From: a virus
Virus record (IMG/VR): IMGVR_UViG_3300030110_005976
Span: 1 to 55,577 of that record
DNA length: 55,577 nucleotides
Direction: 5' to 3' (one strand)
In this document: positions 1-55,577 of the stretch, piece after piece
Layout of the letters: each line of letters starts with the position of its first letter
How positions within the stretch are numbered: the stretch's first letter is position 1
The notes under the pieces: model-generated
The model's input: only the letters and a program-made list of their open reading frames with translations
Databases searched by the model: none
Told to the model about the DNA's origin: nothing
Program-made: the position numbers and the translations under genes

Positions 1-555
1 CAATCCAGTGGCCTGCCGACCATTGATACCAATTTGAAAGTTGTGATGAACTCTGGCATCCCGACCATCGACACCAATTTGAAAGTTGTGATGAACTCTG
101 GCATCCCGACCATCGACACCAACCTGAATGCCGTTATGCAGTCTGGGCTTGGCCTCGATAGTAATATCACAATCGTCAGCGGTGCAGCAGAAGCCCTAAC
201 AGCTTCAGGCTTAACTGGTCCTACCATGGTTTCTGGAAGCCCTAATTTAGTACAATCATTTGATTTGTCTAAAGGTAACTTCCACACCGTTGTAATGACA
301 GGGAATATGACCGGCATAATAGCACACAATCCAACAGCTAAACAAGCTTTTGCAATTAGGTTTGTACAGGACAATACTGGCTCAAGAACAATGACTAACT
401 GGTTTACGAATGGAGCTGGAGTTATTCATACTACTAAGTTTGCGGGAGGAAGTGCGTTTACGCTAACAACAACTGCAAATAAATCAGATACGTTTGGTTT
501 TATTTGTGATACATCCGGAACATATGAGGCGTTTATAGTAGGACAGAATGTATAA
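1..555 (+). CDS. Tail fibre protein, C-terminal part (gene begins before the window)
   Basis: The reading frame is open from the first base, so the gene enters from the left and its true start is not visible. The visible part (185 residues) opens with near-identical 15-residue repeats of the form LKVVMNSGIPTIDTN, then a short linker. It ends in a beta-rich domain with the words QDNTGSRTMTNW, KFAGGSAFTLTTTANKSD and a GTYEAFIVG ending. That pattern (QDxTGSRTxTW, then KWAGGxxxTLTTTANxxD) recurs in C-terminal domains of phage tail fibres and receptor-binding proteins. The repeats probably form an elongated shaft. The gene runs without a gap into the next structural gene. The fibre assignment is inferred from family patterns; receptor and oligomeric state are unknown. 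Confidence 0.7.
   Translation, partial: QSSGLPTIDTNLKVVMNSGIPTIDTNLKVVMNSGIPTIDTNLNAVMQSGLGLDSNITIVSGAAEALTASGLTGPTMVSGSPNLVQSFDLSKGNFHTVVMTGNMTGIIAHNPTAKQAFAIRFVQDNTGSRTMTNWFTNGAGVIHTTKFAGGSAFTLTTTANKSDTFGFICDTSGTYEAFIVGQNV
34..123 (+). repeat. Two 45-bp tandem repeats in the fibre shaft
   Basis: Copies 34-78 and 79-123 differ only in the last base (AAT versus AAC). Degenerate copies flank them at 1-33 and from 124. The repeat is in frame and encodes 15 residues, so it is a protein repeat. Near-identity at the DNA level suggests recent unequal exchange or slippage. Confidence 0.9.
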
Positions 556-1365
556 ATGGACATGTTAATTCATATAGGCGATAGCCCCGATCCGCTGTGG
601 TATAAAGATGGAGATGTTATCGGCTGCTATCCTTTTTTAGGTACTCTTTTACAAAAGGGGCAGAATATCTGCTTACCTAAAAAGTTTGATTATAATTCAG
701 CCGGATTGAGGGATTTTGGAACTCTACTAGAAAAGTACGAGCAAAAGGTACACAAATATAAATATGAAAGAGTTAATTCAAATGAAGTATTAAGAACCAA
801 CCTATTAACTGAAGAGCAGGAAACAATCTCCTCAATTGATCTATATAGTTTTATAACTAAAATGATAGCTATTCCAAACCACACTATTTTTGGTAATGAA
901 CAAGGGAAAGAAGTTTGGTATATGAAAAAGTTGCCTTTGCTTGGAGATTCTGCTAAAATAAATTCCATATGGGATGATATAGAGCAGCACACAGGTAATC
1001 TTAGACAAGATAATATGAGAAAAGAATTTACACCAACAGAAAAACAAACAATGTTGGCATTGGACTGCACAGGTTTTTTGAATAATGTCTATACAGAAAT
1101 TTCTAAACATACAGCCTCTGGTAGATCTTCTCCTATTGCAACTAGGATAGATGAGAATGACGAAACTATGCAGACCACACTAATAGCAAAAAGACAGTGG
1201 AAGATACCATATAAAGACATGGATTCTGAGTTAGGAATTGATATTGACGATGTCTTAGACCTTAACAAGATTGTAGATCCTAGACAGGATATCCAACAAG
1301 CCGAAAAGAATAAGCTTGACGATATTATGTTTGACAAAGTAGATCTTGGGGAGTATACATTGTAA
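556..1365 (+). CDS. Hypothetical virion-region protein
   Basis: I do not recognise this 269-residue protein. It starts directly after the fibre stop codon, with AGGA about 12 bases upstream; a second ATG two codons in is also possible. It has no signal peptide and no clear membrane segment. The C-terminal third is acidic and hydrophilic, with short runs such as DIDDVLDL. It lies between a fibre gene and a beta-helix gene and overlaps the latter by one base (TAATG), which suggests translational coupling. A structural or fibre-assembly role is inferred from position only. The composition does not look foreign compared with its neighbours. Confidence 0.6.
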   Translation: MDMLIHIGDSPDPLWYKDGDVIGCYPFLGTLLQKGQNICLPKKFDYNSAGLRDFGTLLEKYEQKVHKYKYERVNSNEVLRTNLLTEEQETISSIDLYSFITKMIAIPNHTIFGNEQGKEVWYMKKLPLLGDSAKINSIWDDIEQHTGNLRQDNMRKEFTPTEKQTMLALDCTGFLNNVYTEISKHTASGRSSPIATRIDENDETMQTTLIAKRQWKIPYKDMDSELGIDIDDVLDLNKIVDPRQDIQQAEKNKLDDIMFDKVDLGEYTL

Positions 1366-2756
1366 TGGCAGACGTATATGCTAGTATAGGAAGTAGATCT
1401 AATATAGCTATTGCAGATGGAGATTCTAAACTTCCATCTAGTGCTACTGGTGCTGGAAACTTTTCTAGCCCATGGACTATGACTTACAGTTCTTCACCCG
1501 GAGATGTAGGTGTTGGAGATAAGCTTGCTATAACTGATTCTGCGAATTACAGTGGGACAACCTTTTATTATTTTGTTAAATCTGTATCTGGTAACACCGT
1601 AGAAGTTGTATGGATGTATGAAGACTCTGGAGCTCATGGAGCACAAAAGCCGACAGATCTAGAAGTCACTGACGACTATGGGGATACAGAACTAGCGGGG
1701 CACACATACAGCAGGACTTATAGCACTGTTGTAGCTTGGGAGACCGGCCTTAATAATAGTAACTTCTACTCAGCCAATGATGATTTAACTGGCTGGATGC
1801 ATTCCGATAGTGACTTTACAGAAGAAAATGTTATTTTTAATTATACTTCAACTACTTATGATAGTATAAGACTTACAGTAAATGAAGATGATAGACAGCA
1901 TGGAATAGAGGGTCAAACAGGCAAGGTTGTTAATAAACCCAATGCAGATCCCGGAAATAGTGACAAGTCTATATATGATATAAGTATAAGTAACTTCACT
2001 ATTGAGTGGATAGAAATTGATATGTCCAGCTCTACAAGTACGGGGATTTGTGTTCAGACCGGAACAAGTAATACTCAGACAAAGATTAATGCAGTCATCC
2101 AACATATGTTAATTCACTCTTGGGGAACTAACCAAACGCCAGACCCTCTACACGGAATACTACTTAGAGGAGGAAGTGGAGGGTATCATCACATTTTCAA
2201 TTGTATATTATATGATTTTCAAGAAAGTGATGACCATGTAACAGCATTCAATATGAACCAAAGTAGAGCTACGGTTAAATGCTATAATAATACTTCTTAC
2301 GATATGACAGTAACAGGCAATACAGGCAAATATGCGACTGGTTATTTTTGGGGAACCAATGGCACGATCAATATAAAAAATTGCATTGCTATAGACTCTG
2401 AAAATACCGCTGGAGGAGGCACACCATCGACTAGTACAGATTTTCGCAGAAGTGGGGGATCAACCGATTGCGACTTTTGTTTATCTAGTGACTCAACAGC
2501 AGATACGCTTGGAACGAATGCACAAACTAGCAAAACGGCAGCGAATACTTTTGAAACTCCGGGAAGTGATATGCGTATAAAAAGCACATCCGACGCTGCT
2601 GGCAATGGTACTGACTTAGGGACAGAGGCAAATATAGACATAAGCGAGTTCGATAGAAACGGAGTAGATGTGAGTTGGGATATTGGTGCTTATCAAGTAA
2701 CAAGAAGCGCCTCTTCCGTCACTGCTGGAGCTACGTTTCTTTTACTTTTGAATTAA
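1365..2756 (+). CDS. Beta-helix tail appendage or spike-like protein
   Basis: This 463-residue protein is rich in Ser, Thr, Gly, Asn and Asp. Its middle has short repeating strands such as IYDISISNFTIEWIEI, GGYHHIFNCILYDF, ATVKCYNNTSYDM and GTINIKNCIAID. These are typical of right-handed parallel beta-helix proteins (pectin-lyase-like fold) used as phage spikes and appendages. The C-terminal stretch DVSWDIGAYQ is the ending often seen in such beta-helix proteins. No catalytic residues for a polysaccharide lyase or hydrolase could be picked out. It overlaps the preceding gene by one base and probably belongs to the same fibre module. The fold call is inference from sequence texture. Confidence 0.6.
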   Translation: MADVYASIGSRSNIAIADGDSKLPSSATGAGNFSSPWTMTYSSSPGDVGVGDKLAITDSANYSGTTFYYFVKSVSGNTVEVVWMYEDSGAHGAQKPTDLEVTDDYGDTELAGHTYSRTYSTVVAWETGLNNSNFYSANDDLTGWMHSDSDFTEENVIFNYTSTTYDSIRLTVNEDDRQHGIEGQTGKVVNKPNADPGNSDKSIYDISISNFTIEWIEIDMSSSTSTGICVQTGTSNTQTKINAVIQHMLIHSWGTNQTPDPLHGILLRGGSGGYHHIFNCILYDFQESDDHVTAFNMNQSRATVKCYNNTSYDMTVTGNTGKYATGYFWGTNGTINIKNCIAIDSENTAGGGTPSTSTDFRRSGGSTDCDFCLSSDSTADTLGTNAQTSKTAANTFETPGSDMRIKSTSDAAGNGTDLGTEANIDISEFDRNGVDVSWDIGAYQVTRSASSVTAGATFLLLLN

Positions 2757-2775
2757 CTAGGAGTATAAACCTTAG

Positions 2776-3150: not shown

Positions 3151-3192
3151 TTGGTGTAGTCTATAATATAAGCAATATTACAAGGTGAAAAC

Positions 3193-3519: not shown

Positions 3520-3520
3520 T

Positions 3521-4084: not shown

Positions 4085-4101
4085 TTTAGAAAGGCAATAA
4101 A

Positions 4102-4323: not shown

Positions 4324-4325
4324 GA

Positions 4326-7927: not shown

Positions 7928-8218
7928 GTGGATATTATAGATTATTTAATAAAGATCTTTAGTATTGGATTTATTTCCATAGCAGGTCTTTCTTGGCTTA
8001 TCTTTTTTACTATTAAAACCCTTTCAAAATATACAGACTTCGGAAAAGCTAAAGAGAAGCAAAAGGAAAAGGAAAGCAGAGCTTATGGCTCTAGCGACGA
8101 TGTACCCGTATTTAAAAAGGATGGTCCAAAAGAATTTTTCTACGAAACGCCAAAAATAGAGACATCGTTTGGAGATAAAAGAATAGGGGACGTTTATGAA
8201 CACTCCCCGAAGAATTGA
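7928..8218 (+). CDS. Small single-pass membrane protein
   Basis: I place the start at the GTG at 7928 because AAAGGA lies about six bases upstream; an in-frame GTG at 7892 lacks such a site and would overlap the hairpin element. The 96-residue product starts with a hydrophobic stretch (IFSIGFISIAGLSWLIFFTI), one likely membrane helix. A short charged helix rich in Lys and Glu and a hydrophilic tail follow. Its 3' end overlaps the actin-like ATPase gene by 23 bases, so the two are probably translated together. A membrane anchor or docking partner for that ATPase is an attractive but unproven idea. Confidence 0.55.
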   Translation: MDIIDYLIKIFSIGFISIAGLSWLIFFTIKTLSKYTDFGKAKEKQKEKESRAYGSSDDVPVFKKDGPKEFFYETPKIETSFGDKRIGDVYEHSPKN

Positions 8219-9452
8219 GAGAATGTCGGGTTATAGGCAGTCTTTTATACAAATACAGCCAGAATCAAGGCCTGAAAAAGAACAACCTGCTCCATCTGAA
8301 GATACAATAAATATAGAGCAGAATATAATAATTAAGGAAGAGGAAGTTTCCACGTTCGATGGTAAGGAAATATACTCTTATCACCCTAATGTAAATGAGG
8401 TTATAATGAGCGATAAAGATACAAAGGCGCCAGTTAAAAGAGCTGTAGGCGTTGATATTGGAACAGGATTTATTTCTTGCGCTGAGCATGAAGACGGAAA
8501 TAAGAAATTCAGAAAGGTAAGGGACGCTTTCTTCAAGCTTAACCCATCTAAATTCTTAGAAGGATCTGCTCATCAGTTTGGTGAAAATATGCTGAAGAAC
8601 GCAGGTGCTCACTATGTTAAAGTAGACGGTGAGCTTTACGTCTTAGGAGATGATGCATTTAAGTTTGCAAATCTATTTCATCAAGAATGTTTAAGACCTA
8701 TGTCTCAAGGTGTTCTAAATCCGAAGCACCCAGTGTCTAATCTTATGGTTAGCGAGCTTATTAAAGCAGTAGCCGGCAAGCCAAAGTCAAAGAATGATGT
8801 TCTGTACTATTGTGTTCCAGCAGAACCAATTGATGCAGATTTTGATGTTGAATATCACAAGCAAATTTTACATGGCGTATTCTCAGACATAGGATACAAA
8901 GATATTAATGTTATGACTGAAGGCTTAGCTGTAGTTTATTCAGAACTTTCAGATACACAGTATACCGGGATTGGCATGAGCTTTGGAGCTGGTATGTGTA
9001 ATATAGTATATTCTTTTATGGGAATGCCTGTATTTGCATTTTCTCTAAGCAGGGGTGGGGACTGGATTGATTCTCACGCTGCCAAGCATACTGATGAAAC
9101 ACACAATGTCGTTACCTCTATAAAGGAAAAAGCAGATTTTAGTCTTTATGACTCAACTAATGGAATTCAGAGAGCTATATCTATTTATTATGAATCTCTT
9201 CTTTCTTATGTTGTTGAGAAATTTAAAGAGCTATATGAAAAGACACCCAAGAAACAATTACCAAACGTAACTATGGAAATGCCTATAGTTATTGCTGGTG
9301 GAACCTCCCTAGTTTTAGGATTTGTGGAGAGATTAAAGGAACTTACAGCCGAAGATTTTCCCGTGCCCATTTCTGAAATAAAACATGCTCAAGAGCCCCT
9401 GTTCGCTGTTTCTAATGGATTGTACGAGGCTGCTAGGCTTTCTTTACAGTAA
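8196..9452 (+). CDS. Actin-like ATPase (actin/MreB/ParM/Hsp70 fold)
   Basis: This 418-residue protein has a roughly 70-residue hydrophilic, Pro/Glu-rich N-terminal extension. An actin-fold ATPase core follows. GVDIGTG (residues 85-91) is the phosphate-1 loop. SFGAGMCNIVYSF, with a later LSRGGDWID (about 257-285), corresponds to the phosphate-2 loop. IVIAGGTSLVLGF (about 364-376) is the adenosine motif. The usual first aspartate of phosphate-2 (DxGxG) is replaced. VPAEPIDA resembles the MreB/ParM middle segment. There is no Hsp70 substrate domain. AGGGGA precedes the ATG at 8196, and a second good start exists at 8406. The gene lies inside the tail operon. Role unknown: filament former, assembly chaperone or host-interaction factor. 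Confidence 0.75.
   Translation: MNTPRRIERMSGYRQSFIQIQPESRPEKEQPAPSEDTINIEQNIIIKEEEVSTFDGKEIYSYHPNVNEVIMSDKDTKAPVKRAVGVDIGTGFISCAEHEDGNKKFRKVRDAFFKLNPSKFLEGSAHQFGENMLKNAGAHYVKVDGELYVLGDDAFKFANLFHQECLRPMSQGVLNPKHPVSNLMVSELIKAVAGKPKSKNDVLYYCVPAEPIDADFDVEYHKQILHGVFSDIGYKDINVMTEGLAVVYSELSDTQYTGIGMSFGAGMCNIVYSFMGMPVFAFSLSRGGDWIDSHAAKHTDETHNVVTSIKEKADFSLYDSTNGIQRAISIYYESLLSYVVEKFKELYEKTPKKQLPNVTMEMPIVIAGGTSLVLGFVERLKELTAEDFPVPISEIKHAQEPLFAVSNGLYEAARLSLQ
8397..8408 (+). promoter_or_regulatory. Possible internal ribosome binding site and start in the actin-like gene
   Basis: GAGG at 8397-8400 is followed by five bases and an in-frame ATG at 8406. Starting here would give a product of about 348 residues. 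That is nearly the pure actin-fold core without the disordered extension. Two isoforms or a misjudged upstream start are both possible. Confidence 0.4.
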
Positions 9453-11970: not shown

Positions 11971-14900
11971 ATGGCTTTTAACATCAACGCCCATGTCATC
12001 CTGCAAGGGCCAAAAAATATCAAGGCTGTTACTAATAGCATAAAGCAACAGCTTCAAGGTATCTCTGTACCTGTCAATCTCCAAACCGGACAGGTTGCAT
12101 CTACAAATCAGCAGGTGACTACTCTAACAAAAGGGATGAAAGGTCTTCAGAACTCTGCTACTGCTACATCCAAAAGCCTGAAGACTGTTAATGCTGCTAC
12201 CATGGCCTCAGCAACCGCTATGAATAAAAGCGGAGGTGCTGCTGGAAAGATGGGGAAAAACCTTAAATCAGTTGCTAGCAATGCTAATCAGGCAGGCGGT
12301 GCTATGCGCATGTTGGGTAGGGAAACAGCCCTGACCTTCAAGCGCTTTGCCGCTGCCGGTATCGTTACAGCTACTGTCTTTCGTTTAGGAAGTGCTATCT
12401 CCGAAGCAACTGGAAAGGCTCTTGAGTTTGAACGTGAAATGGTCAAGCTTCAACAGGTTACTGGTAAGACTGCTGGTCAATTGAACAAGCTGAAAACTGC
12501 TGTAACTACAGTATCGAAGGACTTGGGTATTAGCGCAAATGAGCTAGCTGAAATTTCTAGGTTGTTCGCTCAGACTGGACAAAGCCTAAAAGAAGTAGAG
12601 TCTTCTATGAAGGCTGTTGCTCGCTCTAGTCTAGCTCCCACCTTCGGTGAAATGACACAGACAGCAGAAGGTCTTATTGCTGCTATGAACCAGTTTGGTA
12701 TAGGAGCTAATAAAGCTGAGGCTATTTTAGGTTCTCTTAATAGAGTTTCTAAGAAGTTTGCTGTAGAGTCTCAAGACTTAATTGCTGCTATCCGTCGTGC
12801 TGGTGGTGTGTTTGCTATGGCAGCAGGGCAATTTAAAGATCCTATTGATGCCCTTAATGAATTTAATGCCATCTTCACTGCTGTACGATCAACTACTCGT
12901 GAGTCGGCAGAAACAATCGCTACAGGTTTAAGAACTATCTTTACTCGTATCCAAAGGCGTGGAACGATTGAGATGCTTAGAGGCTTGGGTATAGAGCTTA
13001 CCGACACACAAGGAAAGTTTGTAGGACTATTTGAATCATTCAGAATTCTTTCTAGACAATTAGATAAGATTGTACAGAAAGGGGATGCTATTACTTTATC
13101 TGCTATTACTGAAGAGCTTGGTGGTATGCGTCAGATAGGTAAATTATTACCTGCTATTAGAGAATTTAGAAAAGCAGAAGCCGCATTTAAAGAAGCACAG
13201 CAAGGAGCAGTAGAAGGATTAGGCAAGGATGTAGAAAAAGGTTTAGAGCCTTTGATAAAGCAGTTTGAAAAAGTTGGAGCTAGATTTGAGGATTTCATTC
13301 GCACAATATCAGAATCAAGAACATTTAAGCAGCTAGCTCAATTTGCAATAGATACAGCTAATGCCTTTATTACTTTAGGCGAGGCTTTAACTCCTATTCT
13401 TCCTTTACTTACTCAATTTGCTGCTATGAGATTAGCAAGAGGAGCCTTCTCATTTGGACAAGGTTTCTTTGGATCTACTAAGGGATTGGGAGCTCAAGGA
13501 CTAGGTCAAAGAGTAGGTGGAGTTGTAGCAGGTAAGCCAACCGGAGCAGCTCCTACACAACATATTTCAAATAATACTACTGCCCTGTTAAAGAATACAA
13601 CCGCGCTTAGTACTCTTACTACAAGTCTGAAGCCATTATCTACTGTAGCTACAGAATTGAAAAGACTTCATACAATTATAGGTAGATTGGAATCAGAAAT
13701 AAGGACTCTTGGTACGGCAGTAAGGGCTCGTGCTACAGCTTCTCCTTATTATGGATCTTCCTCTGGAAGTAGAAGAGGCCGTAGGCCATTCGGTGGTGGT
13801 GGTAGAGTTGGATTTAGAGCTCCTGTGGTTCCTAGAGTGCCGAAACCAACCGCTAAAAGAGGCGCAGAGCCCATAACAACTAGCGCTGCGAAGAAAAAGA
13901 CAGGCTTGACTGGAGAAGTTGCAATTATGCCGGGCATAAGTCAACATGCTAGACCTGCAACTACTTTCGGTGTTGTTTCATTACGTCCTGAAAATGAAAC
14001 GGAAGCATTCCACGCGCATGTCAACTATAGTCAAATGGGAGGAACAATAGATACTCCTGCCGGGAAGGTATCACAAAGGAACAACAAATTCCAAGCGCTT
14101 ACTAAAAGTAAGAAGTCAGGAACTACTGGTGTAACTATACAGGTTCTTGGGGATTCACTTGATTCAGCTACTGCAGAACAATTTGAAGCAAATCTATCTG
14201 AAGCCATGAGAAAAGCGGTAGAAATTGAATCCAACGAAATTCGAAACAACCTTGGCATAAAGTCTGGAGCGACTCCAGACCCTAGAAAAGCAGGTATAAA
14301 CTTTGAAAATATATCTGGAAATCTATTCGAGTTAATGCTTAATACTGTAGGTGCTCCATACACTCCAGATAAAATTCAGGCTAATGATGCATTTGACTTC
14401 CCTAAAGGGCTTGGGCTAAATCTTAGTGATGTCTTTACAAAATGGCCTCAACTTGTAAAGACAAAAACTGATGCTAAGAGAACACTAAACAAAGATGCAA
14501 TGCTTAGTCTTATGAAGAAGGGTAGAAACACCCTTGATGCTCTGAATCAAAGATTAAATGTAAGCGCTAGCAAGACAACACGGCGGGCCGGATTGGGGTG
14601 GACAAGGAATGAGAGAGGTTTTGGAGCAGCAGAAGGTCTTGCAAAAAGACAAATCAAAGATGAACAATACTGGACAGATGATGGCCTACTAAAGGCTATA
14701 TTGATGCCCGGAGAATTGGTATCTTTTGGAGCTGATCCTTCAACAGCAAGACAAATCGCAGCAGGAAATGTAAATGCTGTAGCTAACCTCAACCCAATGA
14801 AAACAGGTGTAGTTCCCGGAACTGGAAATAGAGATACTTATCCTATGGATCTTCCTCCCGGAGCTGTAGTTGTTCCTAAAGGTCTTTCTGAAGAAGCTAT

Positions 14901-38199: not shown

Positions 38200-38200
38200 T

Positions 38201-39163: not shown

Positions 39164-40203
39164 AAGATTTCCTTAATTACTGATGCTTGTTTAGCATGGG
39201 AAAGAGCCTCTTTTGACTCAGGGCCTTTTCTGGATTTTTTAATAAATTCTAATTTATTTTCAAAGCAATCTCTAAGAGTACTCTTCAACGAAAGGATATT
39301 TGGTTTAAAACAGGTCTCCCTAGCGGTAAACATATCTGCTAAAGGTCTATCTGGATAAATCATTATATCTTCGTAGGAGTCTACAATGAAACCATTCTCA
39401 CTTGTTACCAATTCATCTCTTCCAGAGCCTTTGACTACAACTGGAGCGTTACCTTTAAGTAGAGCGGCTGCTACATTATGGTTAAACCCTGTTGAGAAAG
39501 AAGCGTCTATATAGCAATCGCATCCTTCATGCAGACCTTCTACTCCTTGAACCACATGTATATGTGGGTAATAACCACTATTATAGATACCAATTTCACG
39601 AAGAGTCTCGGAGATTACGGCATCTGCCTTTTGAGGATCTTCTGCCTGCAATACCAAAGTAACATTATCATTCATGTGGAACTCAGAGCAGTAGGCTTGG
39701 ATTATATTTTTTGTACCACCTAAAGTTTCTAGTCCTCCGGCAATAGTATAAAAGTTAAACCTAGTGCTATTGTTGGTTGGTGAGTCCTCTACTTCGACTG
39801 CTCCACCTATCACATGAGCCTTGTCTCTTATTTCTTTAGACATTCCGCTCTTTTCAGCTTCCGTAGATACAAGTACCTTATCTAACAACATTAAGTAGTT
39901 ATCCCATTGTCTGTTGCGTCTAGTCTCAAAGCTTGAAACGCCAATAACAGTTTCAAAGTTAGAGTTGTATAACATATAGTTAGGAAGCATGTGCTGTATC
40001 AACACATCATATTTTTCTTTTTTGTTAGCTTCGAAACTGAATATGTTTGGGTTTAAGTTTTGCTGCTCGGGAAGATTTGACAGAAACACTGGTCTACAAG
40101 TAATAGATATATCCTCAATTAAAGATAGAGATTTTAGCAAACTTCTGCTCAAGTTACCCCACGAATCAGATTGCCTATAAGGTCCAATAAAAAGGATGTT
40201 CAT
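39154..40203 (-). CDS. Glycosyltransferase, GT4-like
   Basis: AGGAGA precedes the ATG at 40203. The 349-residue protein opens with NILFIGPYRQSDSWGNLS, a GT-B N-terminal loop. The C-terminal half has ASFSTGFNHNVAAALLKGNAPVVVKGSGRDEL and SENGFIV. That matches the donor-binding 'EGF…AxAxGxPVV…NGxxV' pattern. It overlaps the next upstream glycosyltransferase by one base. Donor and acceptor are unknown. Confidence 0.7.
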   Translation of the reverse strand: MNILFIGPYRQSDSWGNLSRSLLKSLSLIEDISITCRPVFLSNLPEQQNLNPNIFSFEANKKEKYDVLIQHMLPNYMLYNSNFETVIGVSSFETRRNRQWDNYLMLLDKVLVSTEAEKSGMSKEIRDKAHVIGGAVEVEDSPTNNSTRFNFYTIAGGLETLGGTKNIIQAYCSEFHMNDNVTLVLQAEDPQKADAVISETLREIGIYNSGYYPHIHVVQGVEGLHEGCDCYIDASFSTGFNHNVAAALLKGNAPVVVKGSGRDELVTSENGFIVDSYEDIMIYPDRPLADMFTARETCFKPNILSLKSTLRDCFENKLEFIKKSRKGPESKEALSHAKQASVIKEILCS

Positions 40204-41840: not shown

Positions 41841-42282
41841 TCTTTTCCCTTATCTTTCTTACGGCCTTATAGAATACTCTTTTTACATAAGAGTTAGTTC
41901 TTCCTGTTATCTCTGCCATTTCAGCTAGCTTATATCCCATACTTCTAAGTTCTAAAAAGCCTACCTCTTCTTCAGAAAGCAAGCTTGGCAAAGCTTCCCA
42001 GAGCTTGTCCTTGTTTTTGTAAATTGGAGGAGAGCAAACATTCAAAGATGAATACCTCCCCTTTTTAGCACATTTTATTTCTTTTATTATTTCCCATCTT
42101 ATTGGGTTCCAAGCATAAGTAGATAGAACCGCACCTTTTGTAGAGTCGTATTTCTTCAGAGCTTTCCAAAGGCCTATTCTTCCTGCTTGTATATAATCTT
42201 CCCTTTCGGTAAGGTTCTGTGGTTTAAATGAGTTCACAACCGAAACCACAAGACCCATGTTCTTCTCAATTAAATCATCCAT
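41833..42282 (-). CDS. Sigma-70-family RNA polymerase sigma factor (short)
   Basis: This 149-residue protein has AAGGAAGAGG before its ATG. Region 2 is clear: REDYIQAGRIGLWKALKKYD is the core-binding helix, and STYAWNPIRWEIIKEIK the -10-recognition helix. Region 4 is also clear near the end: LSEEEVGFLELRSMGYKLAEMAEITG, with NSYVKRVFYKAVRKIRE as the -35-recognition helix. Regions 1 and 3 are absent. It may direct host RNA polymerase to late or middle phage promoters. Promoter sequence is unknown. Confidence 0.8.
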   Translation of the reverse strand: MDDLIEKNMGLVVSVVNSFKPQNLTEREDYIQAGRIGLWKALKKYDSTKGAVLSTYAWNPIRWEIIKEIKCAKKGRYSSLNVCSPPIYKNKDKLWEALPSLLSEEEVGFLELRSMGYKLAEMAEITGRTNSYVKRVFYKAVRKIREKNE

Positions 42283-42311: not shown

Positions 42312-43946
42312 CTAACTTGTTAGCTGTTCTACCTTTTTTATCAAAAAACTTCCTCTATTCTTATCTTTCATACCTCTGATCAACACTGTATTGCCTTCAT
42401 GTAGCATCTTTTTGTACTTTTCCCACTCGTCGGAGAAAGCTGTTACATTATCTAAAGAGCAGCTAGTGTCGCTAACGGTTACAAAGCCCATCTTCATACC
42501 CTTTGCTTTACCTTTTTTTATCGTCCACTCCCTGACAGAGTCTATCTTTACCGCCAGAACAATTCCTTTTTGAGAATTGAATCCGTCAATGAATTCTTTA
42601 CAGCTACAATTTGATCTACTAGTGTCATATTCGTCTACTTTATTGCAAGTCAATGAGATTCCAAGAAGCTCTTCTTCAACTTTTGATACCCAAGATGGAG
42701 AATCATATAGTTCATATCCCGGATTATCATAAGTAACGAGGAGGTCTTCTATTACAGGTATTCTATCTTGTCTGAATATAGGTCTGTTCTTAGATTTTAC
42801 TCTAGAAGCTTCTATCATCTCGCCTATACATTCTACTGCAGTAGAGGAAGGTCTTGCTTCTTTGTAATTTTTTAGCCACTCTACCTCTCTCTTGGTGAAT
42901 TCTTTTATTAAATTAAAATTATGCTGCATCTTAGAGCGTGATATTTTAAAGCAATCAAATACCCCTGCAAGTATGAGAGACTCAAAAGCCTTTTTGTTTA
43001 CAAACGGAGCCACAAGTAGTAAAAAGCAATCCCAATCACATGTACGTAGATCTATATTATTTTCTTTTATATGGGCTAGCATTTTTTTGAATACAGAAGA
43101 TCCTACATTTTTTATATTTGTCATACCATAGGTAGGATTTTTACCTATCAGTTTGAACTCCTCGTTCATATGAATTATATTTGGAGGAAGCACCTCTATT
43201 CCCATAATCTTTGCATTATTCACAAGCTCATTAACTTCCCAGAATGTATCAGGCTTGCCAACTGCATTCTTAAGATACGCTGTAAAAAACTCATGAGGAA
43301 AATGCGCCTTGCAGTACGCCGTCAAATAGGCATTGTACGCATAGCTTACAGAGTGAGATTTGTTGAAAGAATATCTTTGTGATTTTTCGATCCAACTAAA
43401 TATTTCTTCTGCTTGTTCTTTGCTAATAATTCCTTTGTTAGACGCTCCTTCTAAGAATGACTTTTTAACCTTAGCCATAACGTCAGCCTTCTTTTTGCCG
43501 ATGGCCTTTCTCAATATGTCAGCTTCCTGCAAGTCAAACCCAGCGATCTCTGTAGCGATTAGAATAGCCTGTTCTTGATAGACTAGGATTCCTTGAGTGC
43601 TTTTAAGAATCGGCTCTAGAGAGCTGTGGAGATACTCTACGGGTTCTCGGAAATGCTTCCTATCAATATAGTGCATAGTAAGGCTTTTTCCCTTTACCAT
43701 AGCCTCTAAGCATCCGGGCCTCATAATTGCAATAAGGTCTGAAAGCTCTTCTATATTTCTAGGCTTAGTCTGTTTAGCTAGAGATCTACCTAGTTGAGAC
43801 TCAAGCTGGAATACGCCTTTAGTGTTTCCTTCACAGATTAAGTCCCAAGTAGCAGAGCAGGTTAGTGGTATAGATGTGATGTCTGGATTAAATATTAGGC
43901 CATTTTCTCCTTCATGAAATTCACATCCGCAATCATATTTTCTCAT
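42312..43946 (-). CDS. dnaE: DNA polymerase III alpha subunit, C-terminal part (split gene)
   Basis: This 544-residue polypeptide continues DnaE exactly after the palm. GVFQLES (44-50), LIAIMRPG (71-78) and YSFNKSHS (192-199) are fingers motifs. The C-terminal end has a HhH-like GMTNIKNVG segment and an OB-fold (VTVSDTSCSLDNVTAFSDEW). The catalytic aspartates are not here; they are in the gene at 44648. The N-terminal 40 residues have a small Cys/His insertion (YDCGCEFH). It overlaps the exonuclease gene by four bases. With its partner the total is 1164 residues, the length of a normal DnaE. Confidence 0.9.
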   Translation of the reverse strand: MRKYDCGCEFHEGENGLIFNPDITSIPLTCSATWDLICEGNTKGVFQLESQLGRSLAKQTKPRNIEELSDLIAIMRPGCLEAMVKGKSLTMHYIDRKHFREPVEYLHSSLEPILKSTQGILVYQEQAILIATEIAGFDLQEADILRKAIGKKKADVMAKVKKSFLEGASNKGIISKEQAEEIFSWIEKSQRYSFNKSHSVSYAYNAYLTAYCKAHFPHEFFTAYLKNAVGKPDTFWEVNELVNNAKIMGIEVLPPNIIHMNEEFKLIGKNPTYGMTNIKNVGSSVFKKMLAHIKENNIDLRTCDWDCFLLLVAPFVNKKAFESLILAGVFDCFKISRSKMQHNFNLIKEFTKREVEWLKNYKEARPSSTAVECIGEMIEASRVKSKNRPIFRQDRIPVIEDLLVTYDNPGYELYDSPSWVSKVEEELLGISLTCNKVDEYDTSRSNCSCKEFIDGFNSQKGIVLAVKIDSVREWTIKKGKAKGMKMGFVTVSDTSCSLDNVTAFSDEWEKYKKMLHEGNTVLIRGMKDKNRGSFLIKKVEQLTS

Positions 43947-44614
43947 CTAGCAAAAGCCCCTTTGAATTTTCCTACAGTTGATTGTCTTCTGTGAAACTTC
44001 ATGAACTTAACAAGGAGCTCAGCCTCGTCAATAGTATCAGACAACGCCTCGTGAGCTTGCGCTGCGTTCATTCCCAAGAATTTCCTAAAAGCGTCTAGCT
44101 TCATACTGCTAGGTTCGTCTAAGTTTTCAAACCACATGAATAAAATATCCATCATATCTATTTTGGTTACTTTAGAAAACGGAGATTTTGTCTTGTACTT
44201 TTCAGCAAGGCGATTAGCTATAACTAAGTCAAATCCTATAATGTTATATCCTGAAGGAATAGGTTCTGTATACCACTGTCCGGGTTTCTTATCAACCTCA
44301 TACTTTGCACAATAATTACAAAAATTTTTCCAAACCACCTTTTCGCTTTGGCCAGTTTTCCAGTCCTTAACAATATCCTCGGTCTCAACACCTCTTTGCT
44401 TAGCGTGCCAAGCAATAGTATCCTGCCTCTCCTTTGTGAAGTATTCTTCGCTATCTATACCGTCTGGTCTGATAGTAGCCCTAAATGCCTGTTCTTTTTT
44501 GATCTCTAGGGTTCTTGGATTTACTGGTATAGCAGCAAGCTCTACTGGATTGCATGTCTCTGGATTTGGACCATCGGTTTCCCAGTCAAATACTATAATC
44601 CATCTATTATTCAA
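43943..44614 (-). CDS. dnaQ: DnaQ-like DEDDh 3'-5' exonuclease
   Basis: This 223-residue protein has the three exonuclease motifs. FDWETDG near the start holds the first acidic pair (D-x-E). GYNIIGFDLVIANRLAEKY is ExoII. AHEALSDTIDEAELLVKF is ExoIII with the H…D pair of the DEDDh class. A TTG start at 44614 is supported by GGAGA seven bases upstream. The gene lies between the two halves of the split polymerase and overlaps the second by four bases. It probably acts as the proofreading subunit of that polymerase. Confidence 0.85.
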   Translation of the reverse strand: MNNRWIIVFDWETDGPNPETCNPVELAAIPVNPRTLEIKKEQAFRATIRPDGIDSEEYFTKERQDTIAWHAKQRGVETEDIVKDWKTGQSEKVVWKNFCNYCAKYEVDKKPGQWYTEPIPSGYNIIGFDLVIANRLAEKYKTKSPFSKVTKIDMMDILFMWFENLDEPSSMKLDAFRKFLGMNAAQAHEALSDTIDEAELLVKFMKFHRRQSTVGKFKGAFAR

Positions 44615-44647
44615 TTTACATCTCCTTTTTTTCTTCTAACCATTGAA

Positions 44648-46510
44648 TTATACTCCCATAAGTATCTTAGGAATTTCCATTACCTTGTCAAGCATCTTAA
44701 TTCCAAGAACATCTAATTTTAGAAGACCTGCATCTTCGCAGCTAGGACCTTCAAAACCAGCTAGTAAGTCTTTTTCTTCCCTATCCAAAACCATAGGACA
44801 TACATCATATATTGGTTGCGGAGAGACAACTACTCCCGCAGCATGTTTTGACTGAATGATTTTTGTGTCCTCTAATCGAATAGCTTGCTCAAATATCTTT
44901 GCAAATTTACCTTGTAGATTTCCGCTATCATCCACATAGCACCAATCCTTTAGCTTGTCAGACTTATTCTCTAGAGCCCAAGTTATCACAGACGAAGTGC
45001 CTAGCTCGTCTTTCATATCCTGTAGCTCATCAGCGATTTTAGACTCATCTAACAAATGTGAAGTTATAGCGTTCTGCTCATCAAAACTAATGTTACCACG
45101 AGCAGCCATTACTCTTTTAAGTGCCGCACGACCCTTCAGCGTTTGGAAAGTAATAATCTGAGCCACATTGTCCTTACCGTACTTCTTCTTAATGTACTCG
45201 ATGATGTCAGTTCTTCCACATTTGGGAACGTCGATATCAATATCGGGCATTGATACTCGACCTCCTGCATTACGACCTGCATTGTAAAACCTTTCAAAGA
45301 TAAGTTCGTAAGGTATTGGGTCAATCTTTGTTATGTCCATGAGATAAGAAACCATACATCCAGCAGCACTGCCTCGACCGGGCCCAGTTAGATAACCTTT
45401 TGAGTTAGCATATTTTAGAATATCTCTAACGATTAGAAAGTAACTAGACAGGTTTGTTTCAGTAAAAATCTTAATTTCTTTGTTCACTCTTGAACCATAG
45501 GCCTCAAACATATCATGATTCTTATCAACATGGTCCATCTTTTCTGTCCATCCCTCACGGCAAAGATATCTAAGATAATCATTTGGAGACATCCCATTTG
45601 GGCAGTCGAATACAGGTGGATTAGGAGGGCCAAGTATATTGTACTCGCTGCACATACTAGCAATCTCAAGAGTAGAGTCAAGCTCTTGATCTGTATGGAA
45701 TTGTTTCATATCCTCATAAGTTGGTATGTGATAGTTGTTAGATTCAAAGAAAGCCTTCATAGACTTGGATTTGCCCTGCTTTAGCTCACTCTGCACTTGC
45801 CCAATACTTTTCCTCATAGCAGTGCAAAGGAGAACTCTTTGGTCATGGGCATCCTCTCTTCGACAATAGTGTGCGTCTGGAGTCGCAACGCAGGGAATTC
45901 CTGTAATAGTTGCTATCTCTCTTAGCTTTTCGGCTACTTCTTTCGCTTTTTTATTTATCAAAGAATCAATCAGTTGTATTTCTATATAAAAGTTGCCTTT
46001 GCCAAAAGCTTCTTGCATCCTTTCAGCTTCCCGAACTCCATCATTTTTCCAGTTTGGATTATCCATTACAGTGTTTGCAAGATGAGATCCAAGATGTCCA
46101 CTGAAAGAGACTATATTACCTGAGCCTGATACGTTTTCAAGAAAATTCTCAAATCCTATTCTTGGCTTGTGGTAAAAATGTTCTGGCTTATTAGAATCAG
46201 AGACTAAAGATAAAAGCTTTTTCCAACCTTGTAGATCTTTTGCCAAAACTACTTGATGCATTAGCTTTGAATTGCTTGGATCTTTAAAAGTAGCTTCTTG
46301 TTGGGATAGATAAAATTCGCAACCTAGAATTGGCTTGAAGCCATTGGATATGGTTTTGTGAAAATCTACTGCGCCAGAAACATTACCGTGATCTGTAAGA
46401 GCGCAAGCGTCTACTTCTATTTCTTCTAGTCGCTTTGCAATTTGTTTCGTTTGCGAAAGTCCGTCCAACAATGAGTATTCACTATGGACATGTAGTGGTA
46501 CGTATTTCAT
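44648..46510 (-). CDS. dnaE: DNA polymerase III alpha subunit, N-terminal part (split gene)
   Basis: The 620-residue protein contains a PHP domain (1 to about 230): HVHSEYS, TDHGN, GCEFY, GHLGSHLA and TPDAHYCRREDAH keep the expected metal ligands. A palm follows, with GPGRGSAAG (376-384), PDIDID (422-427; D425 and D427 fit the catalytic pair) and KLDVLG (D600 fits the third catalytic aspartate). The protein ends 20 residues later, before the fingers. No intein sequence is present. AGGA lies before the ATG. It must assemble with the fragment encoded at 42312 to make a working polymerase. Confidence 0.9.
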   Translation of the reverse strand: MKYVPLHVHSEYSLLDGLSQTKQIAKRLEEIEVDACALTDHGNVSGAVDFHKTISNGFKPILGCEFYLSQQEATFKDPSNSKLMHQVVLAKDLQGWKKLLSLVSDSNKPEHFYHKPRIGFENFLENVSGSGNIVSFSGHLGSHLANTVMDNPNWKNDGVREAERMQEAFGKGNFYIEIQLIDSLINKKAKEVAEKLREIATITGIPCVATPDAHYCRREDAHDQRVLLCTAMRKSIGQVQSELKQGKSKSMKAFFESNNYHIPTYEDMKQFHTDQELDSTLEIASMCSEYNILGPPNPPVFDCPNGMSPNDYLRYLCREGWTEKMDHVDKNHDMFEAYGSRVNKEIKIFTETNLSSYFLIVRDILKYANSKGYLTGPGRGSAAGCMVSYLMDITKIDPIPYELIFERFYNAGRNAGGRVSMPDIDIDVPKCGRTDIIEYIKKKYGKDNVAQIITFQTLKGRAALKRVMAARGNISFDEQNAITSHLLDESKIADELQDMKDELGTSSVITWALENKSDKLKDWCYVDDSGNLQGKFAKIFEQAIRLEDTKIIQSKHAAGVVVSPQPIYDVCPMVLDREEKDLLAGFEGPSCEDAGLLKLDVLGIKMLDKVMEIPKILMGV

Positions 46511-47052
46511 ACTAATATTCCTGTTAGGTCTTCATAAAGCTGTGATATTTCTAAATTATACATGTCAACATGAGTCTTGAAGTTATTTCTTTTGTCGATT
46601 TCTCCACTTTTCCACAACTTGGCCATCTCCCAATAATCGTATGCGCCCATAAAACCGCATAGCCAAATCCTCTTGAGGCCATAATATTTTTTAGGGTGAT
46701 CTTTTGTCGCTCTTTCAAACTCAAGACTTATAAAGGCATATATGTCTGGCTGTTGGTGCTTGCTTGTTTTAGCTACCGAGACATCATAATAAGACTTTGG
46801 AGCAACAGTTCTTCTTTTAGTCTTAACTTCTATCCTGTGACCATCTTGTAGAAGTAAGTCGTGATTATATTTATCAAGCCCTCTGTTGTTACTGACTATT
46901 TGTGCATTGATATAAGGTGCTAGAGCTTCTTCTCCGAGATAGCCAGCAAGGTTTCCTGCGCCCTTGAGTATAGAGTTGTTAATAGAACCCAAAGATCTAG
47001 CCTTTGATTTGGCGCTCTCTATCATTTCCTGAGAGAATGGTAAAGATATCAT
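46507..47052 (-). CDS. PD-(D/E)XK nuclease-like protein
   Basis: This 181-residue protein has GYLGEEAL (E41), then NHDLLLQDGHRIEVKTKRR: D65, E75 and K77 give the D…ExK core of PD-(D/E)XK nucleases. The C-terminal part (YAFISLEFERA; RIWLCGFM) continues the fold. Small stand-alone members act as structure-specific or defence nucleases, so the exact substrate is open. The gene overlaps both the DnaE fragment and the RecB/Cas4-like gene by four bases, tying it to replication or repair. Confidence 0.6.
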   Translation of the reverse strand: MISLPFSQEMIESAKSKARSLGSINNSILKGAGNLAGYLGEEALAPYINAQIVSNNRGLDKYNHDLLLQDGHRIEVKTKRRTVAPKSYYDVSVAKTSKHQQPDIYAFISLEFERATKDHPKKYYGLKRIWLCGFMGAYDYWEMAKLWKSGEIDKRNNFKTHVDMYNLEISQLYEDLTGILV

Positions 47053-48107
47053 ACTTCACCCGGAGCTTTATACTTCCCGATGACATGATCTGGAGCCATA
47101 AGGTTTTGAGTAACCCATTCTATCCCATTTTTTTCTATCATGTATTTTGTTTGCTCGCACTTAGTCATGTACTCCCCATACTTTGAAACAGCTCCAAATC
47201 GCCGCTCTATTAGAGGAGTAACATCAGTATGCTCAAAAGTTGTCTTGCCAGAAGAACATAGCTTGCGACATTTCCAGCTTTTGTTGAGCTGCGGGCACTC
47301 CGTATCTTTGATCAACTCATATTTTTTTCGAATCATTTCTAGAGTGATAGGTATGTCACTGTCTTGGAAGTGTATAGTAAAGGCTCCCCCATCATTAATG
47401 AAGTGAATAGTAACTAGGAAAGTATCTACTTCTGGGTAAAGCTTTTTTGCGGCTAAATGATACATTCTAAGCTGAATATCTTTTTGTAGCTTTGCTGGTG
47501 TCTTTTCTTTTCCGGTCGCCCAGTCCAATCGCTTACCAGTTTTCCAGTCAATTATCTCGTATACATTATCTCCAACATCTGTTATTAGGTCTATAGTACC
47601 TTTAAGGGATAGGTTGCCTTTGAGCTTTGTTCCGTCTGCAAGCTCGTAGTCGTATTTCGCCCATTCCTCATCTATCTCAAAATCAAAGTGCGGCTCGGCA
47701 TCTACGACAACCCTGTTCTTTGGATCAAACATTCCATTATCGTCATCAAATATTTTCCAGACCCATCTTCGACAGTGCTTCAGGTCTAAAGGCTTCCAAT
47801 CATGGTGAGTAGTTCTAGAGGTGTAATACTCGTAGACTTTATCTATAATTTCATCCAGATACTTTGGATCATAATTATCTGTTTGAATTTCTCCAATCTC
47901 ATGATCCTTAAAGACTTTGTCTCCGTCCTGAAGTGCTTTCTTGCAGAGTGCTGTTAGCTCAAGCACCTTGTGAACTATAGTTCCCTTGTCCGCTTTCTTT
48001 CCAGAAGTCCCCCTCCATCCAAGGCCATATTCCATGTAGTACTGCATAGGGCACATCCTATGGCAATTAAAGGAGCTACTTCTAAAATAAACTATTGGGA
48101 TTCCCAT
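47049..48107 (-). CDS. RecB/Cas4-like PD-(D/E)XK exonuclease
   Basis: This 352-residue protein has CHRMCPMQYYMEYGLGW at the N-terminus, GTIVHKVLEL, then LKGTIDLITDVGDNVYEIIDWKTGK (core acid D, EIIDWKTG with the catalytic lysine), and a QLRMYHLAAK helix. The C-terminal CPQLNKSWKCRKLC adds cysteines that, with the first ones, could hold an iron-sulphur cluster as in Cas4 and AddB. AAAGG precedes the ATG. It is probably a recombination exonuclease that produces single-stranded ends for the annealing or RecA-like proteins. Confidence 0.8.
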   Translation of the reverse strand: MGIPIVYFRSSSFNCHRMCPMQYYMEYGLGWRGTSGKKADKGTIVHKVLELTALCKKALQDGDKVFKDHEIGEIQTDNYDPKYLDEIIDKVYEYYTSRTTHHDWKPLDLKHCRRWVWKIFDDDNGMFDPKNRVVVDAEPHFDFEIDEEWAKYDYELADGTKLKGNLSLKGTIDLITDVGDNVYEIIDWKTGKRLDWATGKEKTPAKLQKDIQLRMYHLAAKKLYPEVDTFLVTIHFINDGGAFTIHFQDSDIPITLEMIRKKYELIKDTECPQLNKSWKCRKLCSSGKTTFEHTDVTPLIERRFGAVSKYGEYMTKCEQTKYMIEKNGIEWVTQNLMAPDHVIGKYKAPGEV

Positions 48108-48108
48108 A

Positions 48109-48951
48109 TTAGACCTTTACTTTACCTTGAGAGAGCCTTGGCATTACGTCTTCTAAATGCTCCAAGGCGTAGTATATCTTTTCATTTTGTTCAGGTATAG
48201 TAATATCAGAGTTGTTAATAAGAGCGTCACAGTTATCCAAAGCTGTATCTAACTCTGATTCGCTAGAGTGATCGTCTTTTCCATTATAGATGTCTCTACT
48301 TAAACCAATAACGAATCCTCCTCGTTTCTGGATACCTTCTATCTCGTTCTCAAATCTTACATCGGATACTAGAGCTAGTTCCGAACCATCACTTTCTACT
48401 TTAGCAACAAAAGAATCTAGCCAAACATTATGATTCATTTTTCTGAAGATGTCTGTCCCTACATATTGTAGCACTTCTCTAGCTGTCATCTTGCCTTTAG
48501 CGTGTACTAGAAGACCTAACTCTGCAGCTTGAGCTTTATCAAAGCCCTTCTTCTTTAGTTCGCTTGGACTTATAACTCCGGGCATATCCTCCCATTTAAG
48601 GCTCGTCTTGCTATTCTTATCTTCATCGCTACCAAATACTTGTTCTTCGCTTAGGCCTAGTATCTTGACAGCCATTTCTTTTAGAGTATCTGCAAGAGCA
48701 TATATTTTTACAAAGTGGCGTAGTTCATTATCAAAGAGAGAATCGACATTTACATGTGGATCTTTGAAAGGAAAAAACTTTTCCCCTGTTGGATTTTCTC
48801 CGAATATATCTGTTACCTCTATTTGACCATCGTCTGTCAGTCGAGATACTTTACAAATTCCTAATTCGGAAAGCTTCATAGCTAATATAAAGTTGCACGC
48901 AGTATTTTTGCCGCTCTGCTTCTTGCCTGCAAAGGCTATAATCTGTGTCAT
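48109..48951 (-). CDS. Deoxynucleoside monophosphate kinase
   Basis: The 280-residue protein has the P-loop GKKQSGKNT (9-17). A VQYVGTD-like segment (LQYVGTDIFRKMNHNVW) and DVRFENEIEGIQKRGGFVI match phage dNMP kinases, where they bind the substrate and base. It makes dNDPs for phage DNA synthesis. It begins one base inside the small gene ahead of it (TAATG) and precedes the RecB/Cas4-like gene by one base. The long N-terminal half fits the T4 gp1-like class. Base specificity was not deduced. Confidence 0.85.
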   Translation of the reverse strand: MTQIIAFAGKKQSGKNTACNFILAMKLSELGICKVSRLTDDGQIEVTDIFGENPTGEKFFPFKDPHVNVDSLFDNELRHFVKIYALADTLKEMAVKILGLSEEQVFGSDEDKNSKTSLKWEDMPGVISPSELKKKGFDKAQAAELGLLVHAKGKMTAREVLQYVGTDIFRKMNHNVWLDSFVAKVESDGSELALVSDVRFENEIEGIQKRGGFVIGLSRDIYNGKDDHSSESELDTALDNCDALINNSDITIPEQNEKIYYALEHLEDVMPRLSQGKVKV

Positions 48952-49169: not shown

Positions 49170-49171
49170 TT

Positions 49172-51743: not shown

Positions 51744-51745
51744 TT

Positions 51746-52231: not shown

Positions 52232-52713
52232 GTCCTGTTTATCTTTGCTCTCTGAAGGTTAACAAATAAATCACTTAGGTTCTTAACTGAGCTCGCTAGA
52301 TATGTTAGTCTATCTGCCCTTTGTTGCGCATACGTTTTAATGCTTTCAAGTTTGCAGGCGTACCCATCTTCCCTAACTGCTTGATAGTACTGACTATCCC
52401 ATGAACCTTTATATTGTGCTTCTCTACCAGACATCATTCTTTTAAGGTTCGACGACGCCCAATTAACACGCGCTATTTCTCTATTGTAAGATCTTTGTAG
52501 GTAGAAAGAAAATCCTCCAAGCAATAGAGCCGCTTCAGCGCACTCATCTACTGTGAGCTTTTCCATCTGCTGTCTTGGCATATTCATATATTGCTTAACA
52601 GACTGATCGTGAAAGTCTCCAGCATAGGAGACCAGTCCTAAACTTGACTCATATTCATCTAAGACTTTATCTATTTGATCTAGTCGTTCCTTTGGTTTAT
52701 TCGGATTCTCCAT
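52228..52713 (-). CDS. Hypothetical helical protein in the replication region
   Basis: This 161-residue protein has AGG five bases before the ATG. It is largely helical, with ERLDQIDKVLDEYESSLG at the start and a C-terminal AQQRADRLTYLASSVKNLSDLF. A conserved-looking core sits around KLTVDECAEAALLLGGFSFYLQ. It overlaps the nuclease gene by 34 bases and the zinc-finger gene by four. No fold was recognised. An adaptor in replication is possible by position. Confidence 0.5.
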   Translation of the reverse strand: MENPNKPKERLDQIDKVLDEYESSLGLVSYAGDFHDQSVKQYMNMPRQQMEKLTVDECAEAALLLGGFSFYLQRSYNREIARVNWASSNLKRMMSGREAQYKGSWDSQYYQAVREDGYACKLESIKTYAQQRADRLTYLASSVKNLSDLFVNLQRAKINRT

Positions 52714-53096
52714 TGATCCTCATCCTCGTTGTAAGGTAATTCAATATACGTTATATTATTATACTCGCACCATTCTGCTTTTCTCCGGTCTCTTTTTCTC
52801 TGATTCGCAAAATCTTGTGCAGAAGCATGGAACATTGTATTGAACTTGTAATGTTGCTGACCATGAACCTCGACAACCAACTTAACAGTATTTAGATAGA
52901 AGTCAAAGAAAAGCTTCTCAGTTCTAGTTATAGGTGCAGCTACCTCTTCAAGAATTTGAACTGTTGGAAAAATATCCTTGAGAATACTTCTAGCCTTTAA
53001 ATGCAGCTTAGATCGAGGCCTACTCTCACTAGCTCTAACTACATAACCATGAAGCTTCCAATTATGTATCTGACCATCAAGTCCTCTAATTTTCAT
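52680..53096 (-). CDS. Small Vsr/DUF559-like endonuclease
   Basis: This 138-residue protein carries the compact PD-(D/E)XK core: KLFFDFYLNTVKLVVEVHGQQHY (D65; E76 with VHG) and RKRDRRKAEWCEYNNITYIELPY, the last-strand helix. Very short patch repair and DUF559 enzymes have the same order. It could act as a repair or recombination nuclease. The gene overlaps the RecA-like gene by 11 bases and the next gene by 34, so it is part of the replication/repair string, not a mobile insertion. Confidence 0.65.
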   Translation of the reverse strand: MKIRGLDGQIHNWKLHGYVVRASESRPRSKLHLKARSILKDIFPTVQILEEVAAPITRTEKLFFDFYLNTVKLVVEVHGQQHYKFNTMFHASAQDFANQRKRDRRKAEWCEYNNITYIELPYNEDEDQWRIRINQRND

Positions 53097-54797: not shown

Positions 54798-54798
54798 T

Positions 54799-55200
54799 TT
54801 ATAGTTCCCTTTCTGAATTGCGTAACCAAGCAACATTCTTTGTTCTTAAAAAGTTAATGTAAAAATCAAATGCCTTCTTAGGCACTTTCTTTAGCTCCCA
54901 CTCCGGGCGTCCAGCGTGACGTAATTGTTTACGCTCTGTGCCTTCACTATATAGTCCGATAGGATTGAAAACTTTACCATGTCTACCAATCTTTATGTAA
55001 TATCTATCTCTAGTTTCATCTGAGCTAGACTTGGCGTGAAGATAAACTGGATCAAAGCCATCTGAATGCAGTCTAGGAAATCCTTCTTTGTCGATCCAGT
55101 CGTGCTTTCCAAAGATTGTATATAAAATATCATCGCTTTCAGTATGCTGTAAGCTTTCATTGTTATCAGGTCTGTCAGCGTTTATCTTAAAATTACTCAT
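54799..55200 (-). CDS. Hypothetical protein
   Basis: This 133-residue protein is not recognised. Its middle (GKHDWIDKEGFPRLH; DRYYIKIGRHGKVFNP; GLYSEGTERKQL) is rich in aromatic and charged residues, and the C-terminus has a KKVPKKAFDFYINFLRTKN helix. Such proteins appear in phage replication regions without assigned role. It overlaps the gene before it by four bases and lies one base ahead of the next. Confidence 0.5.
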   Translation of the reverse strand: MSNFKINADRPDNNESLQHTESDDILYTIFGKHDWIDKEGFPRLHSDGFDPVYLHAKSSSDETRDRYYIKIGRHGKVFNPIGLYSEGTERKQLRHAGRPEWELKKVPKKAFDFYINFLRTKNVAWLRNSEREL

Positions 55201-55577
55201 CTGTTTTTCTTCCTTCTTTTCTTCTTGGGTTCATCTTTTGTCCACTTGACTCCACCGTCTGGCTTTTCCATTCTGCTCATACCTTCGGGAAGTTCAGCAC
55301 CACCCTGAACCTTTTTGGTCTTAAAGTCACGCTTCATATCTTCACATTTCCACTTACCGTACTTCTTGCTTTGCTTATCGGCGTAGTGCCCTAAAGTTTT
55401 TGCCTCTGAGACAGAGAAGTTATATGCGCCATAAACATTATCTTCTTCATAATCTCTATGTACTGGCTTTATCTTTTTGCAAGAAGGGCATTTCTTCTTG
55501 TCTTTATATTCAGATCTATGACAAAAGATTGACCATCTATGGTTGCACTCGTCACAAATGTAGCTGTATTCAGGCAT
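55197..55577 (-). CDS. FmdB-like zinc-ribbon protein
   Basis: The ATG is the last three bases of the window, so the gene is complete but its ribosome site is outside. The 126-residue product begins YSYICDECNHRWS and CPSCKK, the zinc-ribbon of FmdB-type small regulators. The rest is basic, ending in a Lys/Arg run (KKKRRKKNR). It is the furthest upstream gene of the visible minus-strand block. A nucleic acid-binding role is plausible. Confidence 0.65.
   Translation of the reverse strand: MPEYSYICDECNHRWSIFCHRSEYKDKKKCPSCKKIKPVHRDYEEDNVYGAYNFSVSEAKTLGHYADKQSKKYGKWKCEDMKRDFKTKKVQGGAELPEGMSRMEKPDGGVKWTKDEPKKKRRKKNR

Follow-up and report, generated by a model that had tools for sequence, protein, structure and literature searches.

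The viral contig analysed here (IMG/VR record IMGVR_UViG_3300030110_005976; its full 55,577 bases are hereafter called the window) is a partial contig of an aquatic bacterial virus and contains no CCWGG site (W, A or T). This loss is shared with many related phages and goes together with a small gene family, c27, for which a restriction endonuclease fold is predicted and beside which no 5-methylcytosine or N4/N6 methyltransferase was found in the 10 to 11 partial contigs searched. Together, these observations make it probable that an enzyme of the phage itself accounts for at least part of the pressure against CCWGG, with c27 acting as a solitary Type II-like restriction endonuclease to which the phage would be immune through site elimination.

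Exact counting returned 0 CCAGG and 0 CCTGG in the window, where a maximal-order Markov model predicted 29.8 and 26.0 (total 55.9), which ruled out chance or base composition as the cause. CCSGG (S, C or G) was above expectation (36 CCCGG and 33 CCGGG, 69 vs 43 expected), and among the 32 five-base palindromes with a W or S centre CCWGG was the sole extinct word (z = -7.5, next -1.4). A first-pass annotation of the window had already claimed that CCWGG was absent where several tens of sites were expected, with CCCGG and CCGGG plentiful, and both statements held on counting. It had also claimed that Pro-Gly pairs are forced to CCC or CCG codons, with Pro elsewhere mostly CCT or CCA. This was borne out, as the codons preceding Gly were CCC (37) or CCG (27) and never CCT or CCA (CCW 0 : CCS 64), vs CCW 574 : CCS 118 before non-Gly residues (Fisher p = 1.3e-44), and the pair given as an example does contain CCCGG (Table 1). 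The pattern was flipped in CCWGG-normal relatives (CCW 146 : CCS 24). Gln between an xxC and a Gxx codon was encoded by CAG in 0 cases vs CAA in 20, Leu in the site context by CTG in 0 vs other four-fold Leu codons in 36, and Trp followed an NCC codon 0 times vs 37 times after other NCN codons. Since these three contexts are also empty, the avoidance goes beyond a W-to-S shift at Pro-Gly. Overall, the observation was confirmed and is stronger than first stated.

Repeating the count in relatives, as the annotation had proposed, extended the loss beyond the window. All relatives found through DnaE (60-93% identity) had zero CCWGG, and when the window and 15 related contigs were pooled (16 contigs, 739 kb) one CCWGG was found vs 771 expected, an observed/expected ratio of 0.001 compared to 0.57 for the next lowest of 512 five-mer classes. 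A DnaE tree of 84 sequences contained two clades (44 and 17 rows) that lacked CCWGG in the sequences examined except for one site in contig G004, and a third clade that was variable. Equally strong exclusions of other words were observed in the variable clade and outgroup, such as GCGC (0/70, observed/expected, as for all such pairs below) in G033, where CCWGG stood at 61/80, and TCGA (2/49) in G032; double exclusions were observed in G013 and G029 (CCWGG and GCGC) and in G039 (CCWGG and GATC). Many six-base palindromes were also depleted in the related phages. A switch between CCWGG and CCSGG among relatives was apparent in raw counts only, and with expectations the main absent words of non-avoiders were GCGC or GATC. 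GATC was missing from outgroup contigs G036, G037, G038 and G039 (0/149, 0/97, 0/37 and 0/116; loci L201-L206 and L209-L211) and was likewise absent from 10 of 80 random viral contigs. By-eye inspection suggested that cluster 108, from the GATC-free contigs, encodes a protein resembling uracil-DNA glycosylases, and it was dropped.

Comparison of gene order around DnaE picked out c27 (Table 1), which is present in every large contig of both CCWGG-free clades. The encoded protein carries a GNxAGxLGEE helix motif, D65 and E75-V-K77-T-K-R; the acidic helix residue E41, D65 and (D/E)75-V-K77 are conserved across 45 c27 sequences, and their assignment to the PD-(D/E)XK class is our own reading. An AlphaFold2 model generated from the 45-sequence alignment (predicted local distance difference test score, 86.8) had as its best fold matches in the PDB the restriction endonucleases Eco15I and NhoI of the BisI family (probability 1.00, E 3.6e-5, template modelling score about 0.4), with further matches to EcoRV, DpnI, SwaI, HincII and PvuII. 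Elsewhere, c27 is found just after ribonucleotide reductase (phage MW202701) or adjoining a MazG-like protein (Ruegeria phage RpAliso). This recurrent company of DnaE, nuclease, deoxynucleotide monophosphate kinase, ribonucleotide reductase and MazG-like genes suggests that c27 helps to degrade host DNA as a supply for replication, or to exclude rivals.

Table 1 Coordinates of the features discussed (positions in the window unless a locus is named)
Feature	Position	Strand	Basis
Pro-Gly pair with CCC before GG	14707..14712	+	CCCGG at 14707
Conserved candidate nuclease, Vsr/DUF559/DUF2726-like	33884-34702	-	Weak Pfam scores
DNA polymerase III alpha, N-terminal part	44648..46510	-	PHROG and Pfam matches; 4-base overlap with the candidate endonuclease ORF (open reading frame)
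Candidate CCWGG endonuclease, family c27, 181 aa	46507..47052	-	PD-(D/E)XK motif, predicted fold, CCWGG-free carriers
Cas4/RecB-like PD-(D/E)XK nuclease	47049..48107	-	PF12705, E 5.7e-20; 4-base overlap with the start of the candidate endonuclease ORF
Deoxynucleotide monophosphate kinase	48109..48951	-	PF21448, E 7.5e-16
Conserved candidate nuclease, Vsr/DUF559/DUF2726-like	52680-53096	-	Weak Pfam scores
PvuII orthologs, Roseophage-group phages	L414:23187-23756, L417:24763-25326, L416:21756-22280		Sequence match to PvuII

The association between c27 and CCWGG loss was assessed in carriers from several sources. A tblastn search of 50,697 phage records returned three matches only, on different backbones, and all three phages were CCWGG-free (MW202701, 0/63; RpAliso, 0/326; MW202481, 0/37); the match in MW202481 was weak (23%, E 2e-4), and this phage lacks several other palindromes too. 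Seven of the eight MW202701 relatives with contigs >45 kb carry c27, and 80 relatives of this phage together had 1 CCWGG vs 1038 expected. In IMG/VR, at least 580 contigs encode c27 relatives, and the 74 of these carrier loci that were newly retrieved (790 kb) contained 0 CCWGG vs 680 expected, CCWGG being their only extinct word of 4-5 bases. Four matches were found in 84,980 prokaryote species genomes, each on a CCWGG-free contig. In a control set of random viral contigs, which was not confined to aquatic samples, 4 of 66 were CCWGG-free and none of the 50 tested carried c27. The carriers represent about six backbone groups unrelated to one another, and these groups, instead of loci, are the fair unit of counting.

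A second nuclease-word pair was provided by family c98, first noticed as confined to GCGC-free contigs, whose predicted fold has weak PD-(D/E)XK matches (RecU, probability 0.94). The 26 loci found with a c98 query (three in contigs already known) contained 0 GCGC vs 450 expected, and GCGC remained absent across whole c98 contigs (0/99, 0/217, 0/40, 0/68, 0/113 and 0/97); it was extinct in none of the 66 random viral contigs. CCWGG was present at some c98 loci (L311, 21/26; L312, 11/19). Most c98 carriers belong to a single phage family (1-3 backbone groups). We count this pair as independent support, parallel to that of c27 and CCWGG. In one c98 contig, G134 (loci L313 and L576), GCGC occurs at normal density as far as position 99,389 but is missing from 100,971-121,582 around c98, with synteny unbroken; the step near 100 kb marks either a recent recombinant or an assembly chimera.

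Searches for other enzymes acting at CCWGG were negative. The cognate methyltransferase of a Type II restriction-modification system was not found, with PF00145 (5-methylcytosine methyltransferases) in 0 of 10 contigs and PF01555 (N4/N6 methyltransferases) in 0 of 11, these being the two methyltransferase families searched and the contigs being partial. The MvaI/BcnI family of CCWGG/CCSGG enzymes (PF15515) was likewise found in 0 of 10 contigs at E <= 10. The first of the two Vsr/DUF559-like candidates in Table 1 was rejected as the cause because it is found in CCWGG-normal relatives too.

Two carriers have not undergone the loss of CCWGG. In G027 (17/27), the c27 copy has lost the conserved motifs GNxAG, GEE and KTKR. 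In G032 (16/38) the copy is intact, and the surviving sites are G-flanked at 21 of 32 positions vs about 8-23% in nine other contigs, as if its enzyme did not accept GCCWGG, a post hoc reading that would explain the survivors. Both belong to the variable DnaE clade, where c27 and loss coincide in G030 and G034, loss occurs without c27 in G013/G015, G029 and G035, and G024-G026, G028 and G033 show neither.

Several observations weigh against a phage-encoded cause. Within the variable clade c27 is a poor predictor of CCWGG loss, and the one CCWGG of G004 stands in a c27 carrier. Both c27 and CCWGG are missing from large c98 contigs, G128 and G139 among them, and from five close relatives of RpAliso. 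The latter could not serve as a with/without-c27 comparison in one host, all being CCWGG-free, and RpAliso itself therefore adds little support. These c27-less relatives (Roseophage group) encode clear orthologs of PvuII (E about 3e-37; Table 1), and nine loci with such orthologs had CAGCTG at 0/99 and CCWGG at 1/588; here the cause may lie in the PvuII-like gene, in host restriction or in both. Most c27 carriers are related to one another, so independent support amounts to about six backbones. The predicted c27 structure resembles restriction endonucleases in fold alone and not in sequence: a sequence search of the PDB, which includes chains of Eco15I and NhoI, gave no match at E <= 10. Finally, these nearest structural relatives cut methylated GCNGC, which is not depleted in the window (GCWGC 135/125, GCSGC 55/38), making GCNGC itself an unlikely target of c27. 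No convincing nuclease turned up among genes confined to CCWGG-free contigs without c27. CCWGG loss has more than one cause, and the c27-less CCWGG-free relatives indicate that host restriction contributes or came first.

In the mechanism we propose, the correlation would reflect cause, and the c27 product would act at CCWGG or at methylated CCWGG, as the data fit either; its description as a putative Type II endonuclease specific for CCWGG is drawn from the genomic association. The enzyme would be made together with the replication proteins and would cleave DNA of the host or of competitors, leaving fragments for the adjacent nuclease and deoxynucleotide monophosphate kinase to recycle. Phage DNA would be spared for want of a target, no matching methyltransferase having been detected in the contigs searched, and any new CCWGG would be cut once the enzyme is made, so that such mutants would be lost and the count would stay at zero. 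The first purge was perhaps made by host restriction, after which only purged lineages could have accepted c27; this order of host-first purge and later uptake is a reasonable history.

Host restriction alone is the strongest rival, although we regard it as rather unlikely as a full account. The first-pass annotation had proposed long exposure to an EcoRII/BstNI-class enzyme: synonymous avoidance under lasting CCWGG-specific cutting fits all data, but a host source is not the best supported one, since it is the phage gene c27 that marks CCWGG-free genomes. Under this alternative the hosts would carry CCWGG-specific Type II restriction-modification systems of that class, or another CCWGG-methylating defence, and c27 would be a bystander common in these phages. 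CCWGG-free relatives without c27 exist, for some of which host restriction is likely the cause; the depletion of many six-base palindromes is as expected from many host enzymes, and the literature documents non-temperate phages that eliminated their sites (PMC6286503). However, CCWGG restrictors would be needed as hosts of about six unrelated backbones in both fresh and salt water, and the difference between the 74 new carriers, all CCWGG-free, and the random contigs would be left unexplained, as would the degenerate copy in G027, the predicted endonuclease fold and the c98-GCGC pair.

A variant of the phage-enzyme explanation, counted as part of it, in which c27 cuts methylated CCWGG, destroys Dcm-type methylated host DNA and also hits phage CCWGG methylated by the host, is about as doubtful as host restriction alone. 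It draws on the best structural matches, which need 5-methylcytosine, and would allow the phage to attack a host that guards its CCWGG by methylation; against it, c27 has no detectable sequence similarity to solved BisI enzymes. Erasure of the sites by a mutational or repair process (deamination of methylated CCWGG, Vsr-like repair), for which the two Vsr/DUF559-like ORFs of the window might speak, is highly improbable, as neither of the C-to-T products, CTAGG and CCAAG, is enriched in the 16 contigs (observed/expected 0.97 and 1.07), synonymous avoidance occurs in all three frames, mere bias would not keep exact zeros across megabases, and the Vsr-like gene is present in CCWGG-normal relatives.

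Beyond the c27 locus, the window encodes DnaE in two ORFs, DnaB, a primase, RecA, a sigma-70 region 2 protein, glycosyltransferases and a deoxynucleotide monophosphate kinase. No PHROG matches were obtained for the ten left-arm ORFs scanned or for three further window ORFs. The DNA polymerase III alpha gene is split (42312-46510, minus strand), with an exonuclease-like ORF (43943-44614) between the N-terminal part and a second ORF (42312-43946), and this layout is kept in most relatives. Next to it on the same strand, a conserved block (33147-42282) includes two glycosyltransferase-like proteins and a MobA/IspD-like nucleotidyltransferase. In the structural-gene half, a 418-aa ORF (8196-9452, plus strand) matches Pfam Volactin (archaeal actin family, E 4.3e-77) and MreB, and this phage-borne actin homologue is also found in G003, G005 and G011 at 74-77% identity. 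A 3,871-aa ORF in tape-measure position (11971-23586, plus strand) has best matches that differ widely in length (2,311 aa in G010, 3,291 aa in G013).

We are evenly divided on a broader proposal, that a widespread class of aquatic phages uses solitary, methyltransferase-free endonucleases of several specificities, CCWGG and GCGC at the least, to attack the DNA of hosts or rivals, being immune by complete elimination of the word. If so, the vocabulary of a phage genome would reveal, from sequence alone, what the nucleases encoded by that phage recognise, and extinct words would be fingerprints of phage-made nucleases besides scars of host restriction. Site elimination would then join methylation and base modification as a third means of tolerating a restriction enzyme. 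The enzyme would also serve as a weapon of competition, by which any co-infecting CCWGG-containing phage would be cut, and such phages could be mined for new restriction enzymes.

The literature searched, in which subscription journals are thinly covered, yielded no description of a phage system of this kind. The nearest bacterial parallel is PacI of Pseudomonas alcaligenes, a solitary restriction endonuclease without a methyltransferase in a host whose genome lacks its sites (PMC3488263). PacI is tolerated because its sites are absent, as is proposed for c27. In contrast, PacI comes from a bacterium, belongs to the HNH enzymes and has an 8-base site so rare that its absence is cheap, whereas c27 is viral, has a putative PD-(D/E)XK fold and faces a common 5-base word that had to be purged. 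BisI enzymes, which require methylated GCNGC, have PvuII as their nearest relative among canonical Type II enzymes (PMC11347163). Eco15I and NhoI share with c27 the predicted fold, a small PD-(D/E)XK domain, a five-base site with a variable centre and the lack of a linked methyltransferase, but they are bacterial, cut methylated GCNGC, a word that the window does not avoid, and gave no sequence match to c27. PvuII and its phage orthologs in the RpAliso group are of the same PvuII-like fold class, appear solitary in the phage genomes and have carriers without CAGCTG; they differ in being recognisable by sequence, and RpAliso lacks CAGCTG as well, with no PvuII ortholog of its own. The phage T4 nucleases EndoII and EndoIV break host DNA to feed replication, and T4 is itself protected by modified cytosine. 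The proposed role of the c27 product is similar, while protection would here be provided by missing sites. Phage restriction-site avoidance (PMC6286503) likewise eliminates the recognition word from the genome, with the difference that the cause there is host restriction-modification systems and here would be a gene of the phage.

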